From: a virus
Length of the DNA stretch: 41,208 nt
Virus record (IMG/VR): IMGVR_UViG_3300027896_000093
Span: 1-41,208 of that record
Reading direction: 5' to 3' (one strand)
Shown here one piece after another: positions 5,440 to 41,208 of this stretch (its first letter is position 1; every line of letters begins with the position of its first letter). Made by a program: the position numbers and the translations under genes. The notes under the pieces were generated by a model. The model did no database searches and had not been told where the DNA came from. It worked only from the letters and a program-made list of their open reading frames with translations.

Positions 5440-5991
5440 ATGATAAAACGCGGATCAATTTTTATAGGGGCTCAAAAAGACGATTTTTTAAGTGGCGCAA
5501 TTAGAAAAGTATCAAGTTCTAATTGGAGTCATTGTGCTATTATAACAGATTCCACAGATTTTGAATCTTATGTATTTGGAGCTAGGGGTAGGGGAGTAGA
5601 TCTCTGTACTCTTACAGAATACGATAGTATAGATAAATATTATTATAGAATTTATGAAATAGATATGCCAGAATTTGCTATTGATAAGGTCTTAAGGGAG
5701 ACCGTTGATACTTTTTTAGAAAAGCCTTATGGTTATTTTCAACTTGCTGTTGGCTTTCCTATATGGTTTGCTCTAAAAGACTGGCTAGGTATTACATTAC
5801 CTTTTAATCCAGTAAGTTTTTGGACAGTATGTAGTGAATTAGATGCTGTATATATGAAAGCCTTATTAACTGACAGATTTCCAGAACTAAAACTTTGGAA
5901 TAAAGACTTAATCACTCCTGAGAATATTTTTCAGTTTGTCGAAAAACATCCCGAAATATTTAAAAGGGTAAAAGAGAAAAAAGCCTTGTGA
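5440..5991 (+). CDS. Permuted NlpC/P60 (YiiX/YaeF-type) papain-like cysteine peptidase
   Basis: 183 residues. The order of motifs is that of the circularly permuted NlpC/P60 families: RGSIFIG near the N-terminus, then SSNWSHCAII with the candidate catalytic His31, then WTVCSELDAVYM with the candidate nucleophile Cys131 near the C-terminus. A third polar residue, possibly Glu42 or Asp40, follows the histidine strand. Known members cleave peptidoglycan-derived peptides or act as amidases/acyltransferases. There is no signal peptide or membrane segment, so it would need a holin or virion delivery to reach the wall. The next gene's GTG start overlaps this stop (GTGA). It could be a lysin, a virion-associated wall hydrolase or an unrelated amidase; the fold call is fairly good, the substrate is open. 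Confidence 0.65.
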   Translation: MIKRGSIFIGAQKDDFLSGAIRKVSSSNWSHCAIITDSTDFESYVFGARGRGVDLCTLTEYDSIDKYYYRIYEIDMPEFAIDKVLRETVDTFLEKPYGYFQLAVGFPIWFALKDWLGITLPFNPVSFWTVCSELDAVYMKALLTDRFPELKLWNKDLITPENIFQFVEKHPEIFKRVKEKKAL

Positions 5992-7109
5992 TTTATAAGA
6001 TAGAGCACAATAATAAATTTAGTAGACAGCTAGTAGCTTGGAAGCACGCCCAACACATGAAGTCTATAGACTATGAAGAGCTTCCTAATAAAATATCTGA
6101 TAATTGTATTATTCAGGAAAAAGTGGATGGCCAATTGGTTGCTTTCAATTGGACTAAAGGCTCAGAATCGTCTTTTTCAAACACAGGCTTTGGTGTACGG
6201 AAAGAATTACCAGTACTTGATGAGATTGTGCATATATTAAAATCTCACGGATATGCACAATCAACTATAATGGGCGAGCTGACTTTTGTAAAAAAAAGAG
6301 GTGTACCCGAGCAGTTCAACCAAACGATGTCTAAAACAAGAGCCCCAGAATCAAAAGAAGATGAGGACAAAATACATTTCTTTATCTTTGAATGGTACAC
6401 AGGTAATGATAAGAAATGTATTTTGTCCTCATCTTCTTTTGATTCTGGGGTCAAAGAATTACATAAGATATTTAAAGATGCAAAGCATATTTATCCTGTA
6501 GATTATTATATAGGGAAAGATAATCTTAAAAAAGCTTGGAATGAGTTTGTAAAAGATGAAAAAAATGAGGGGATAGTCATACGTTGCCCTAATAAAATAA
6601 TAAAAAGCAAGCCGTTTTTTACTATTGACTTAGCGGTAATAGGCGTAGAAAGAGGCACAGGTGTCAACAAAAACAGAATGGGCGCTCTTAAATTAGCATA
6701 TTTCGATGGTAAACATTTTCATCTAGCTGGTCGGGTGGGTACAGGATTCTCTTTTAAAGACAGGGATGACTACTGGGCACTTGCTAAAAAACATGAAGTA
6801 AAAAAAGAAGGTAATGTAATTTGGGTAGATCCTTATAAATTTAATAAAATACTGGAAATACAATATCAGCGAGCAAAAGGTACATATAATCATACCCTTG
6901 AATTTAAAAAAGGAGAGTGGTCGGAGGGTGAAAAAGAATTTACGATTACTCTTACAATACCCTCGTTTAAAAGATTAAGAGATGATAAGACTGTGAATAA
7001 GGCTGATTTAAGAATGACACAGGTACCTATATTCAGTGAGCTTAAAAGTCAGTATAAAAAGTCGGCTTATAGAATAATTAAGGCATACTTTAAGGAATAC
7101 TGGGAGTAA
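5988..7109 (+). CDS. ATP-dependent DNA ligase, compact form
   Basis: 373 residues. It joins DNA nicks by lysyl-AMP chemistry. Motif I is EKVDGQ with Lys45 as the AMP acceptor; motif III is MGEL (Glu97); motif IV is EGIVIR (194-199); the motif V region is IKSKPFFTIDLAVIGV with Lys206/Lys208. An OB-fold follows (GALKLAYFDG, then GRVGTGF at 248-254), which is characteristic of ATP-dependent ligases. No N-terminal DNA-binding domain is present. The start is a GTG overlapping the upstream TGA. Residues 119-154 are odd: they are encoded by a 40-bp perfect inverted repeat, so one strand's KKCILSSSSFDSG is the antisense of PESKEDEDKIHF. The next gene encodes LigD-like polymerase and phosphoesterase domains, so this is probably the ligase arm of a split LigD-like system. 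Confidence 0.9.
   Translation: MIYKIEHNNKFSRQLVAWKHAQHMKSIDYEELPNKISDNCIIQEKVDGQLVAFNWTKGSESSFSNTGFGVRKELPVLDEIVHILKSHGYAQSTIMGELTFVKKRGVPEQFNQTMSKTRAPESKEDEDKIHFFIFEWYTGNDKKCILSSSSFDSGVKELHKIFKDAKHIYPVDYYIGKDNLKKAWNEFVKDEKNEGIVIRCPNKIIKSKPFFTIDLAVIGVERGTGVNKNRMGALKLAYFDGKHFHLAGRVGTGFSFKDRDDYWALAKKHEVKKEGNVIWVDPYKFNKILEIQYQRAKGTYNHTLEFKKGEWSEGEKEFTITLTIPSFKRLRDDKTVNKADLRMTQVPIFSELKSQYKKSAYRIIKAYFKEYWE
6343..6450. repeat. 40-bp perfect inverted repeat inside the ATP-ligase gene
   Basis: The left arm is 6343-6382 (starts CCCCAGAATCAAAAGAAGAT) and the right arm is 6411-6450; the right arm is the exact reverse complement of the left over 40 bases. With a one-base bulge at 6383, three more pairs form and leave a 21-base loop. 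The repeat lies wholly inside the coding frame and keeps it open. In RNA this would be a very long hairpin and a plausible RNase III substrate. It may have come from a template-switch (snap-back) replication error. An assembly artefact is the main alternative. Confidence 0.95.
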
Positions 7110-7111
7110 TT

Positions 7112-9364
7112 ATGGCGTACCCAAAGCATCCAGATACCGTTATGGTCAAAGCCGATAACTATAGCTATACCAAAAATATAACAGAATATCATATCTGGAA
7201 ATACTACGATTCTATAAAGTCAAAGCTTATACCAATATTAAAAGGATCTGATTTATTTATTGTACTAAAAACAGCTAAAGACAGTATTTATATGAGGCAT
7301 CCTTTTGACAGTAAGACTGCTTTTATTAGAATAAATAATGCAGAGCAATTTGATAAGTATAACACAGGACGTGTAGTAGAGTTTCATTTGACTAGCCCCC
7401 AAATGACAGATCTTATGGTACTCGATATGGATCCTGCCAAAAATCTTCAATGGTCAGATATAAAACAACGTACTCTACAGCTCTATGACTATCTTAATGC
7501 CAGAAAAGAATTTAAAAAAGTAGAAATATACTATACAGGCGCTAGGTCTTTTCATATATGGTGCTATTTGAAATCTAAAAAAGATATAGACTCAGTACGT
7601 AATGAGTGGAAAGAAATCCTTAAAAAAGATTTTCATGATAAGGACTACTATACTGTCGATGAGAAAAGTCCCAAGAAAAATCAACTTAATATAGACTTCT
7701 CACCAGTAAAGGTAAATGGTGGATTTGTAGCGCCCTTTTCTATCCGTGTCGATACTGGGCTAGTAAGTACTGAAGTACCTGCTAAAAAGCTATCGGCATT
7801 TAAAAAGACAGACAGTACTATAGATAAAGTATATAAGAAGACCTTAAAAAAAGAGTTTCCGTGGGATATAGAAAAAGAAAATAAAAAAGCTTTTAGATTG
7901 GTACTGGCTTATTATGGCTTAGCCACTCTTACACAACCATTAGTGTCTCGACCACCGTACGTAGGTGATCAGATCACTTATAAAACATCAAACAATAAGT
8001 ATGTTAAAGAAGAACTTGTTAAAGGCTATAGGGGCAAGTTTGTTATACAAAAACACCAAGCTACAAGTTTGCACTTTGATCTTCGATTAGAATTTCCAGT
8101 TTCATCTTTAAGAGACTCTCTTGAACCCCAAGCAAAACTTACTGGTGAAAAGAATACTGCTCCAGATAAAGCTGGTACTGTATATAGATCGTTTGCTATC
8201 CCAAAGCATAAGCTACCTACCTATCACAATAAGCTATTAGCCATGGAAACAGAAGATCATGCAATGTCATGGGGGACTTTTGAAGGTACCATAGAAGAAG
8301 GTTATGGGGCGGGTACAGTCGAGATATTTGATAAAGGTACTTTTGAGCTATTAGACGCTACTTACGATAAAAAATATATTATAGAATTTAAAGGTAAAGA
8401 CATAAAAGGTATTTTTGCTCTTATAAAGACTAGTGCTAAGACATTTTTATGGGTAAAAGTAAAAGACAAAGAAAAATACGCTTCTGTAATTGATTATCCA
8501 AGGCAAGAATTACTACCTGAGCTGTGGGAATTTATAGATGAGATACCTCATATAAAAGACATTTATAGAGATAAGATTACCCTTGATTTATATAAAAGTG
8601 CTGAAATACACTTTAAGAATCCTCAAAATTGGATAATAAGGCTTACAGTAACGGGATCTATGACTACTAATTTATACAGCGACCTGTCTGACTTGGATGT
8701 GAATGTAGAGATAGACTATGATAAATTTAGATCCAATAATCCTGATATTTCTCTATCTGATGATTATTTACTACGTAATTTTATCAGAGATAAGATTTAT
8801 CCTGACGTAAATAGCTATTTTTTAGATGACCTAAAAATTAAGTACTTTATTATTGGGGTAGGGCACTGCCTTACAAGTGACTTTAAATATGATCTTACTG
8901 ATGAAAAATGGTTAGGAGAAGCTCCAAGGCTATACCCCTTAGAGTATAATCCTGATAAAATTTTTGAAAAGGAAAAGGCTATCGCTTTACAGGCCATTAA
9001 AATATATGATATGTACATAGAGGATATAATTACAAAGTTAAAGGAGTATGAAAAGCTTACAAGTTATTTAAAGGTCTTTGATAATAAGAAATTTCATTCT
9101 TTAAAAGATACTCTTTATAAAGATTTACAAAATAACATAAATACACTCAAAAGATGGGATGACATACAGCCAAAGTTCAGGAATATGAGATATAAGCTAC
9201 CGAAAGAAAAATTAAAGTATCCTTATATTGACATTAATGAGAATTGGGAAGCTCATAATATTATCTTTAAGTACTTGGAATTCTTTGATTATTCTAACTT
9301 AATATGGCTGCTAAAAAGCCGTCTTACCGAAGAACAAAAGAAAATAGTAGAACAGCTGATTTAA
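7112..9364 (+). CDS. LigD-like primase-polymerase / 3'-phosphoesterase / nucleotidyltransferase fusion
   Basis: 750 residues with three domains. Residues about 20-260 are a LigD-type archaeo-eukaryotic primase-polymerase: VLDMDP (Asp105, Asp107), TGARSFHIW (His148), and NIDFSPV...VAPFSIRV (third acid Asp195). Residues about 305-455 are a LigD phosphoesterase: FVIQKH (His315), LHFDLRLEF (His321, Asp323, Arg325), EDHAMSWGTFEG (His383) and GYGAGTVEIFDKG. Residues about 505-640 carry TGSMTTNLYSDLSDLDVNVE, the G-S...D-x-D signature of pol-beta-type nucleotidyltransferases (Asp527, Asp529). The last 100 residues are helical. Bacterial LigD uses the first two domains to fill in and trim broken DNA ends before ligation. 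The start follows GGGAG and overlaps no gene; the ATP ligase ends two bases upstream. The third domain's substrate is unknown. Confidence 0.85.
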   Translation: MAYPKHPDTVMVKADNYSYTKNITEYHIWKYYDSIKSKLIPILKGSDLFIVLKTAKDSIYMRHPFDSKTAFIRINNAEQFDKYNTGRVVEFHLTSPQMTDLMVLDMDPAKNLQWSDIKQRTLQLYDYLNARKEFKKVEIYYTGARSFHIWCYLKSKKDIDSVRNEWKEILKKDFHDKDYYTVDEKSPKKNQLNIDFSPVKVNGGFVAPFSIRVDTGLVSTEVPAKKLSAFKKTDSTIDKVYKKTLKKEFPWDIEKENKKAFRLVLAYYGLATLTQPLVSRPPYVGDQITYKTSNNKYVKEELVKGYRGKFVIQKHQATSLHFDLRLEFPVSSLRDSLEPQAKLTGEKNTAPDKAGTVYRSFAIPKHKLPTYHNKLLAMETEDHAMSWGTFEGTIEEGYGAGTVEIFDKGTFELLDATYDKKYIIEFKGKDIKGIFALIKTSAKTFLWVKVKDKEKYASVIDYPRQELLPELWEFIDEIPHIKDIYRDKITLDLYKSAEIHFKNPQNWIIRLTVTGSMTTNLYSDLSDLDVNVEIDYDKFRSNNPDISLSDDYLLRNFIRDKIYPDVNSYFLDDLKIKYFIIGVGHCLTSDFKYDLTDEKWLGEAPRLYPLEYNPDKIFEKEKAIALQAIKIYDMYIEDIITKLKEYEKLTSYLKVFDNKKFHSLKDTLYKDLQNNINTLKRWDDIQPKFRNMRYKLPKEKLKYPYIDINENWEAHNIIFKYLEFFDYSNLIWLLKSRLTEEQKKIVEQLI

Positions 9365-9663: not shown

Positions 9664-9984
9664 ATGAGAAAAAAATTAAAAATTGGAGCTTTGGATTGGG
9701 ACTATGATGATTGTGCCAGTGCTAAAGAGATGGGGGATGAACTAGGTAATTGTGATTATGAAAAATTGAGCATTAAAATAAAAAGAAAAATGCCTGAAAA
9801 TGTTAAAAAAGTAACAATTTTTCATGAAATTTTTCATAGTTTTTTTTTCTCCGGCGGAAACTCTCCTAAAAATGAAGAAGATGTTGTAGACTTACTGGCT
9901 AATCAATTTGTTATGTTCATTCAAAATAATCCTAATTTTTTTAAGAAAATATTTTTTAATAAAAAAAAAAATCTCTGTAATTAG
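9664..9984 (+). CDS. Small HEIFH putative zinc metallopeptidase, phage ImmA/IrrE-like
   Basis: 106 residues. ATG follows TAGGA by five bases. It has the zincin signature HExxH as TIFHEIFHSFFF (residues about 55-66), followed by an acidic helix NEEDVVDLLANQFVMFIQNNP that would supply the third ligand (Glu or Asp). This layout, a short strand-rich N-terminus with HExxH and then E-x(3)-LAN, is common in small phage proteins related to ImmA/IrrE peptidases. The target is unknown; ImmA cleaves repressors. The C-terminus is encoded by an 11-A run (9961-9971) that makes the last residues prone to frameshift. It is not obviously part of either the repair cassette or the tail operon. Confidence 0.65.
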   Translation: MRKKLKIGALDWDYDDCASAKEMGDELGNCDYEKLSIKIKRKMPENVKKVTIFHEIFHSFFFSGGNSPKNEEDVVDLLANQFVMFIQNNPNFFKKIFFNKKKNLCN

Positions 9985-39421: not shown

Positions 39422-41208
39422 TTAAAACAATCCCTTAAACAACATTTTTTGCAAGTCTTCTTCTGTGATTACTTTTGTACCATATGCTGTTGCTTTTTGA
39501 GCTTTTGAAGAACTAGAATTAGCATTTTTCATAACCAAATAGGTGAGAGTCTTGGTCACACCATTAGATATCCTGCCGCCTTTTTCTTTTATTTTGTCCT
39601 CAAGCTGGTTATTTCGAAAGCCGGTAAAACAGAACGACTGACCCGAAAATTCTCCTGAATACTTTTTTAAAGACGTATATTCTAAAATTTCTTTTATCAA
39701 ATCTTTGTTGCTTTGAATTCCTTCATAAATATAAGTAGCTAGAGTATCCTCAAAACCGTCCAGTTTTAATATATCTTCTTTTTTAATAAGCAAAAGCGCA
39801 TCTAAGTCATAGGTGTCTCCTAGAATTTCAGCTCTTTTTGTACTTAAATTTCTTATATTTAGCCCCGCCAGTAACTCTGCTATGGTAATTTCTTTCTTTT
39901 CGTGTAATTGCTTTAAAGCCCTGACAGCACTGCGCTCACCCTGTCTATCCAAAATTGATATATCTTCAGCGGTAAGCTTATAGAAGTCTGTGATTTTATT
40001 GAGTTTTCCCGCAGAATTTAATTGTTCAATTAACTTAGTGCCGAAATCTTTTATATTTAAGACATCTAGCCAATGTTCTAATGATTTCAACAGTTTGGCT
40101 TCACAATTTTCATTTTTACAATAAAGAATACTTTCTGTTTTTTCAAGTATTCCTCCACAGTCGGGACAACTCTTTGGAATTTCTATCTTTTTACAATCAT
40201 TATGCCGTATGACCTCTACTATTTTAGGTATCACGTCCTTCGATCTTACAATTTTTATATCATCATTAATATGGATTCCAAGACGCTCTATTTCATCAAA
40301 ATTATGTAAGGTAATCCTTGAAATGGTCACCCCCGCACATTCGACTGGTAGTATAAAAGCTACAGGTGTAATAGCACCTGTTCTTCCACACTGATACTTT
40401 ACGTCTAATAAAGTGCTTTCGGCAACTTTAGACTCAAATTTGTACTTTCTGGCATATTCAGGATAATAGATATCTGATGTAATTTCATCTTGTCTCTTTT
40501 TATCATTTATATTTACTACAAGGCCATCTAACTCATAATCTAGCTTATCACGTACCTCTTCTTCATATTTCTTATGCAGTGCAATAAGAGTCTGTATATT
40601 AATTTTATAAAATCTAGGAGTTTTTAGCTTTAATGTATCCTTTATATAGCCCAGCATATCGTATTCTGTATTAAAAGATACACCATATAGCTTATAAAAG
40701 AATATAGAAAGATGTTCTGCGCCTTGTCCATCGAGGCGTCTCATAAGTCCTACAGCACCGTTTCTAGGATTTTTATATTGTGGGAAGTGTGTGTTCCATG
40801 TGGAACATAAAAGCACTATTTCTCCTCTAAGATGCCCTGTAAAAGGTACTGGTAATTTTTGTGCCATACCTTGCATTTTTAAGACATTACGCGTCACATC
40901 TTCTCCAGTATCACCATCTCCACGAGTAATAGCTTTTATAAGCTGGCCTTGGTGAAAGGTAATACTTATAGACAAGCCGTCTAATTTCTCGCTAGCACAT
41001 ACTTCATTTTCTTTTGAATATTTATCAGCCCATTTATAGATATCTTCTTCTGCTTCAAATTCAATAAGAGATCCCATTGGTATTTCGTGTTTTGCCTTTT
41101 CATAGCCTAATGCTGGAGTAGCACCTACTTCTTTTAAAAAGGGATCACTGGGATACTTTTCTTTATAGACCTTTTTTAGTTGATCATATTCATCATCTGA
41201 TACAAGAG
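39422..41208 (-). CDS. ligA: NAD+-dependent DNA ligase (5' end outside window)
   Basis: The ATG at 41077 is internal: the frame stays open to 41208 and reads SDDEYDQLKKVYKEKYPSDP, then GATPALGYEKAKHEIPMGSL, the NAD-binding domain Ia motif that precedes the adenylation domain. About 595 residues are visible. Motifs in order: EKLDGLS (AMP-lysine codon at about 40985-40987), RGDGDTGEDVTRN, RGEIV, NPRNGAVG, ELDGLVV, KYKF, an OB-fold (GRTGAITPVAFILP), a C-x2-C-x12-C-x4-C zinc finger (CPDC...CKNENC), a helix-hairpin-helix block, and a C-terminal BRCT domain at about 39431-39670. It seals nicks using NAD+, in replication or recombination. Bacterial LigA is about 670 residues, so the full gene is probably a little longer than what is seen. 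The J-like gene follows after 67 bases. Confidence 0.93.
   Translation of the reverse strand, partial: LVSDDEYDQLKKVYKEKYPSDPFLKEVGATPALGYEKAKHEIPMGSLIEFEAEEDIYKWADKYSKENEVCASEKLDGLSISITFHQGQLIKAITRGDGDTGEDVTRNVLKMQGMAQKLPVPFTGHLRGEIVLLCSTWNTHFPQYKNPRNGAVGLMRRLDGQGAEHLSIFFYKLYGVSFNTEYDMLGYIKDTLKLKTPRFYKINIQTLIALHKKYEEEVRDKLDYELDGLVVNINDKKRQDEITSDIYYPEYARKYKFESKVAESTLLDVKYQCGRTGAITPVAFILPVECAGVTISRITLHNFDEIERLGIHINDDIKIVRSKDVIPKIVEVIRHNDCKKIEIPKSCPDCGGILEKTESILYCKNENCEAKLLKSLEHWLDVLNIKDFGTKLIEQLNSAGKLNKITDFYKLTAEDISILDRQGERSAVRALKQLHEKKEITIAELLAGLNIRNLSTKRAEILGDTYDLDALLLIKKEDILKLDGFEDTLATYIYEGIQSNKDLIKEILEYTSLKKYSGEFSGQSFCFTGFRNNQLEDKIKEKGGRISNGVTKTLTYLVMKNANSSSSKAQKATAYGTKVITEEDLQKMLFKGLF

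Follow-up and report, generated by a model that had tools for sequence, protein, structure and literature searches.

The 41,208-base viral DNA analysed here (hereafter the window) encodes an ATP-dependent DNA ligase, a primase-polymerase (AEP, or Pol) and a 3'-phosphoesterase (PE). These are the same three domain families, with the same catalytic residues, as those of bacterial LigD (Pol-PE-Lig or PE-Lig-Pol), which is accompanied by Ku. With moderate confidence, we interpret these genes as a Ku-independent, LigD-like module with which a huge myophage mends its own DNA. In favour of Ku-independent repair, all three LigD activities are encoded, the catalytic residues are intact and the genes are adjacent. 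On our best reading of the comparisons presented below, the module would work more like the mycobacterial LigC/Prim-PolC pair with an added PE than like classical NHEJ.

The ligase/Pol-PE pair lies among genes for tail, tape-measure and baseplate proteins, in agreement with the phage context proposed in an earlier reading of the letters alone (hereafter the sequence-only reading). Both open reading frames described in that reading are present, and its observation was confirmed, though it proved incomplete. The best match of the baseplate wedge protein in the window is to a 485-kb uncultured phage (32% over 93%), followed by Tunturi_5 and Bacillus phage G, and the window is most likely a piece of a huge-myophage genome. 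Host contamination or a chimera was ruled out by even base composition and by the presence of tail or baseplate genes on both sides. The relevant features are as follows.

5440..5991, + strand: putative permuted papain-like (C92/YiiX) enzyme, upstream neighbour of the ligase (PF05708, 5e-5, below cut-off)
5988..7109, + strand: ATP-dependent DNA ligase of the minimal type (nucleotidyltransferase and OB domains), 373 aa
7112..9364, + strand: fusion protein of Pol, PE and a probable nucleotidyltransferase (NTase) domain, 750 aa
7112..7921, + strand: LigD-type primase-polymerase (AEP) domain (PF21686, alignment, fold match)
8012..8479, + strand: LigD 3'-phosphoesterase (PE) domain, residues about 309-440 (PF13298, fold match, residue table, tree)
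8096..8176, + strand: insert of ~27 residues inside the PE domain, missing from all other PE domains aligned
8519..9361, + strand: probable pol-beta superfamily nucleotidyltransferase with a helical tail, putative (motif G515-S516...D527-L-D529-V)
39422-41208, - strand: NAD+-dependent DNA ligase LigA with BRCT, a second ligase that continues past the window end

The GTG start of the ligase gene at 5988 overlaps the stop of the C92-type gene, and the 750-aa fusion begins two bases past the ligase stop. Because these genes overlap or almost touch, all three are probably read as one unit. The ligase/Pol-PE pair shows a weaker codon bias than the structural genes, in which it resembles the LigA gene, and this suggests that the pair is expressed at a lower level than they are. 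Searches of the 41-kb window revealed no tRNA genes, and defence-system models gave no match. The phage thus encodes ligases of the ATP and the NAD+ type, which were largely complementary in a survey of jumbo phages (PMC7824862). Shortly 3' of the cassette, positions 9664-9984 encode a small protein of unknown function (phrog_1233) with an HExxH-like motif, possibly a metallopeptidase.

The product of 5988-7109 matches the phrog_114 profile for ATP-dependent DNA ligases (E=4.7e-23), Pfam DNA_ligase_A_C (PF04679, 8e-8) and solved DNA ligases (down to 9e-9). Its motifs are intact (motif I EKVDG with K45, GEL with E97, EGIVIR, KSKP, RVGTG, and motif VI FKRLRDDK) and can be aligned with their counterparts in LigD and phage ligases. 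This ligase domain is not part of a LigD-type chain, and NCBIfam LigD models score far under cut-off. The claim of a separate ATP ligase therefore stands, and to this extent the set is indeed 'split', as the sequence-only reading put it. By itself, however, such a division is not exceptional, since Bacilli MAGs have split sets made up of Ku, ligase and a PE-Pol fusion (L073, L092, L097). These are among the 80 cellular loci, in which several phyla also encode PE, Lig and Pol as individual genes and one Acidiferrales MAG has a Pol-PE protein (L089), no ligase being seen within that locus. A split LigD is, as such, nothing new.

Profile searches likewise uphold the assignment of a LigD-type polymerase to the N-terminal part of the 750-aa protein, since LigD_Prim-Pol (PF21686) matches residues 66-251 above cut-off (1.6e-11, or 1.2e-12 with the domain cut out). 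An AlphaFold model of this protein, prepared from a 16-row alignment, has confident cores in Pol (residues ~100-200) and in PE (~300-330 and 356-450). Foldseek places both on known structures: the Pol core matches Prim-PolC and LigD Pol structures at about 1e-4, with Prim-PolC structures ranked top, and the PE core matches 3p43 at 6e-11. With viral models as the target, Foldseek gave only full-length matches of low quality. In an alignment with 45 cellular Pol domains, the Pol catalytic residues are kept (D105, D107, D195, H148 and R212).

NHEJ polymerases carry a specific three-residue 5'-phosphate pocket formed by N13, K16 and K26 (PMC3898472; PMC8656161). At the aligned positions of the window Pol, which lie in a weakly aligned stretch modelled with low confidence, these residues are replaced by H6, T9 and E25. 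In cellular Pol domains, the K16 position is occupied by K or R (44/44) and the K26 position by K (44/44). By alignment in the same weak stretch, the equivalents of R53 and P55 are S46 and D47. The wedge F63/F64 is changed to I59/Y60, and its first position is F in 43 of 44 cellular sequences and W in the other. The N-terminus of Pol is only ~21% identical and is modelled with pLDDT <50. The region past residue 245 is also modelled with pLDDT <50, and a C-terminal Loop 3 of the Prim-PolC type is not recognisable there. Because the pocket lysines are lost, weaker gap binding by the phage Pol would be expected unless other lysines substitute. The term 'end-joining cassette' used in the sequence-only reading assumes NHEJ and is overstated, given that the window Pol has, by alignment, lost the defining pocket of NHEJ polymerases (K16 to T9, K26 to E25).

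The PE domain fused to this polymerase is recognized by LigD_N (PF13298) with a value of 3.6e-19 (9e-21 with the domain cut out) and by sequence comparison with solved PE structures (2.7e-19), such that the proposed fusion of the two activities is well founded. Neither of the results that the sequence-only reading had named as refuting it, a first domain outside the LigD/AEP superfamily or an undetected PE, was obtained. Equivalents of Q40, H42, H48, D50, R52, S61, K66 and H84 are kept, including the Mn site (H42/H48/D50 and H84). Two other positions differ. Tyr88, whose mutation inactivates the P. aeruginosa PE (PMC8656161), is replaced by W in the window, a change shared by three of the 11 other viral PEs and by none of 57 cellular PEs; R76 is replaced by L, likewise in four other viral PEs.

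Although the Pol and PE assignments for 7112-9364 were correct, a fourth domain was missed, which is C-terminal and NTase-like. Residues ~470-750 hold TGSMTTNLYSDLSDLDVNVEIDYDKF, a pattern of pol-beta-type nucleotidyltransferases, and PF01909 matches this domain at 0.023, below the Pfam cut-off. Weak tblastn matches (E 0.7 and 3) are to stand-alone proteins of Streptomyces phages pSt2308 and BRock, which align along the C-terminal domain and have in common with it GS...DLDV followed by DY..F..NP. The model of this domain is of low confidence (pLDDT 48) and has no fold match. Judging from these motifs, the domain is probably nucleotidyltransferase-like. An identity as RlaP was ruled out, since profile PF10127 gave no match. 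Two loci (L115 1405-2394 and L114 1369-2358) represent an unannotated Streptomyces phage family adjoining endolysin genes, and its members look like stand-alone nucleotidyltransferases related to the C-terminal domain of the window.

The statement that the window contains no Ku gene is borne out, as PF02735 gave no match in this 41-kb fragment of a huge-phage genome. Moreover, Ku was not found in any of 14 records searched, among them the related huge-phage records of 340 (G005), 485 and 309 kb. For the 750-aa protein, the phage collection gave no relative, and no true relative was identified among 2.9 million viral contigs of IMG/VR with the whole protein. The only viral match of the whole-protein and C-terminal scans (L001) was rejected as a chance match of 16-18 residues on the wrong strand of a capsid-type gene. 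No matches resulted from a Pol-domain profile run against viral contigs, a whole-protein scan of genome contigs or a baseplate scan of viral contigs for sister phages.

A PE profile scan of the viral contigs yielded 12 loci. Four of these (L007, L008, L009 and L011/L032) group PE with a ligase and/or a LigD-like AEP. In L009, ligase, AEP and PE form one protein of 1,362 aa, and in L007 they are spread over two genes. The AEP and PE of L008 are retained up to a contig end at which the ligase side is lost, and the L011/L032 cassette, from a 340-kb record, consists of two genes. A further locus (L119) carries ligase and AEP before its contig stops. Where the contig is long enough, the gene order in these huge phages is terminase, portal, one or two genes, and then the cassette, whose giant proteins also include ASCH, DJ-1/PfpI or 2H phosphoesterase domains. 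Profile comparison relates the cassette AEPs to LigD Pol with a probability of 97, where the LigD side had three rows including the window sequence; a further profile comparison, with the window sequence in both alignments, was set aside. Huge phages carry the set only patchily, as indicated by the two phage genomes nearest by baseplate, in which no PE was found.

Trees were used to examine descent. The PE tree (63 rows, 139 columns) comprises 57 cellular or plasmid PEs and one viral PE outside the phage group, and it joins the window with L007, L008, L009 and L011 as one group against these 58 others (support 98/89), with a long branch for the window. In the Pol tree (40 rows), where branches are very long, the window groups with the four phage AEPs, apart from 35 cellular Pols (94/95, not starred). 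In contrast, the window ligase is ~19% identical to the ligases of the other huge-phage cassettes and, at 18-24% identity, is no closer to giant-cassette ligases than to cellular ones. These findings indicate that the PE, and perhaps the Pol as well, descended within phages, whereas the ligase may have been swapped. Given this low identity among the ligases, the whole set need not share one origin.

Among known systems, bacterial LigD offers the three domain families, and the Pol-PE order of the window is also that of Saprospiraceae LigD (L052, L077). The window differs from LigD in that its ligase is a separate gene of the phage DNA-ligase type, no Ku is detected, the locus is that of a phage, the aligned positions of the Pol do not keep the residues of the 5'-phosphate pocket and of end recognition, and there is an extra NTase-like domain at the C-terminus. 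Split sets of Bacilli resemble the window in having a ligase gene beside or near a protein with both Pol and PE activities, and L089 shares its Pol-PE order. However, Ku is nearby in Bacilli and their Pol keeps the pocket lysines, and the cellular sets have no C-terminal NTase domain.

The giant cassettes of huge phages (L007, L008, L009, L011/L032 and L119) are like the window in combining ligase, LigD-like AEP and PE of the same clade with no Ku found, so that sets without a detected Ku recur. They are unlike it in that their domains are fused into proteins of 1,300-2,300 residues by terminase/portal, and in that their ligase and Pol are only remotely similar. Such chains fit the injected polyvalent proteins of phages, in which disparate enzymatic domains are found in one chain adjoining the portal gene (PMC5512222), but the window proteins (373 and 750 aa, in a tail module) do not.

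LigC and Prim-PolC, a separate ligase and Prim-Pol that act as an excision-repair pair (PMC5663958), are similar to the window in being encoded together, in the Ile-Tyr wedge (I73/Y74 in Prim-PolC, which fills short gaps in excision repair; PMC7442782) and in providing the best Pol fold match. The mycobacterial pair is Ku-independent, and the window set has no detected Ku. Unlike the window, the pair has no PE domain and keeps a 5'-phosphate pocket of N20, K23, Y25, K35 and P65 (PMC7442782), with K23/K35 corresponding to T9/E25 of the window. Prim-PolC also has Loop 3, which is not recognisable in the low-confidence part of the window Pol model. Because Prim-PolC keeps these lysines, their loss is not a Prim-PolC trait, and the phage Pol appears to be fully like neither the NHEJ polymerases nor Prim-PolC.

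In the mechanism that we infer (its activities, step order, substrate and benefit), the PE domain would trim 3'-phosphates or 3'-ribonucleotides off damaged or nuclease-cut 3' ends. The Prim-Pol would then close the short gap, where, like its relatives, it would probably insert ribonucleotides, and the separate, co-translated ATP ligase would seal the nick. The C-terminal NTase-like domain might add or modify a terminal nucleotide, or hold the substrate. The substrate is predicted to be phage DNA with nicks, short gaps or ends that are already paired, rather than breaks bridged by Ku. A role for the set in repair of phage DNA, as suggested in the sequence-only reading, is plausible, whereas the circularisation or end protection also suggested there is conjectural. 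Points against Ku-independent gap repair are that Prim-PolC keeps its pocket, that the Pol N-terminus is weakly aligned, that the PE carries the Y88 to W change, and that the ligase is distant.

Of the competing explanations, canonical NHEJ survives best, although we regard it as unlikely. The proteins would join double-strand breaks with a Ku that comes from the host or from the unsequenced part of the phage genome. This possibility is consistent with the full LigD activity set, with the fragmentary coverage of the huge-phage genome, with the split Ku + ligase + PE-Pol sets of Bacilli, and with the precedent of mycobacteriophages Omega and Corndog, which pair their own Ku with host LigD (as cited in PMC7719229). 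It is opposed by the lack of Ku in the window and in the related 340-, 485- and 309-kb phage records, and by the loss of equivalents of the 5'-phosphate pocket, R53, P55 and F63 in the window Pol.

A more speculative proposal, which we also rate as unlikely, is that an ancient Ku-free LigD lineage of huge phages is carried in the virion and injected to clean, fill and seal the genome before expression, with the window representing a streamlined two-gene form with an added nucleotidyltransferase. Improbable, and less likely than NHEJ, is the proposal that the window proteins themselves are late products that travel inside the virion and are injected with the incoming genome, which they would repair or circularise ahead of attack by host nucleases. 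The ligase and Pol-PE genes do sit within the tail and baseplate module, and the sister cassettes are giant multidomain proteins by terminase/portal, which is the setting of injected polyvalent proteins (PMC5512222). However, neither protein of the window pair is a giant polyvalent chain, and virion delivery is less likely for this pair than for its relatives, as the pair has a weaker codon bias than the structural genes, suggesting lower expression.

Repair of RNA ranks lower still and is, in our judgement, quite doubtful. Ligase, PE, Prim-Pol and nucleotidyltransferase would here restore RNAs such as tRNAs that had been cut by host ribonucleases. The ligase does have weak similarity to the RNA_ligase fold, below cut-off, an NTase-like domain is encoded beside it, PE in general acts on ribonucleotide ends, and jumbo phages provide a precedent with their sets of RNA ligase and RlaP (PMC7824862). 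Nevertheless, the ligase carries a DNA-ligase OB domain and motif VI and has DNA ligases as its best matches, the RlaP profile is without a match, and the window lacks tRNA genes. Finally, a decayed or moonlighting acquisition from a cell without a conserved repair role, as the divergent Pol, the Tyr88 to Trp change and the lack of close relatives in 2.9 million viral contigs or the phage collection might suggest, is very improbable given the intact catalytic residues of three domains, the long open frames, the grouping of PE with phages rather than cells, and the recurrence of similar sets.

The Ku-independent module that we favour belongs to what appears to be a new, Ku-less phage lineage of ligase, Prim-Pol and PE. 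No report of such a lineage with all three activities was found in the literature searched, most subscription papers being outside the search. A LigD review does not mention phages (PMC8656161), a jumbo-phage survey does not mention LigD (PMC7824862), the polyvalent-protein survey does not name DNA ligase, LigD or ASCH (PMC5512222), and some 3,000 actinobacteriophages examined in an NHEJ survey yielded none of its components (PMC7719229). Some Bacillus phage records contain genes labelled 'ligD', which match in the ligase part only. Known phages either bring Ku and borrow the ligase of the host, as Omega and Corndog do, or use Mu Gam; a phage that has the LigD side, with no Ku detected, turns the Omega/Corndog arrangement round. 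If the phage lineage is real, it would offer testable Ku-independent versions of LigD chemistry, hint at how huge genomes survive nuclease defences, and mean that PE and Prim-Pol domains may have a reservoir in phages.

Several additional observations were made in the viral loci. A stretch of lysozyme-like appearance (ESGGK...GDxGxSFGxTQVH) lies between the ligase and ASCH domains in L007 2675-9496, L009 5622-9710 and L119 7112-10312; Pfam searches of the whole L007 and L009 proteins name nothing there, and a PDB search with the L009 stretch gave 0 matches. Many different portal-near proteins (L033 4386-12127, L009 4470-5618, L032 8901-10082 and L119 5604-7109) open with a motif like LAxxLDxxGxxxEADxLDxxI, which is perhaps a packaging or targeting tag. 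Stand-alone LigD PE domains are present in L010, L012, L014, L016 (a 315-kb record), L017 and L018, some with the catalytic Tyr changed to Trp. In L013 10022-11152 (from a 235-kb viral record) and L015 6012-7142, a protein of 376 aa fuses a LigD PE to an apparently complete family X DNA polymerase, with HhH, palm and thumb present, and constitutes another Ku-less end-processing fusion.
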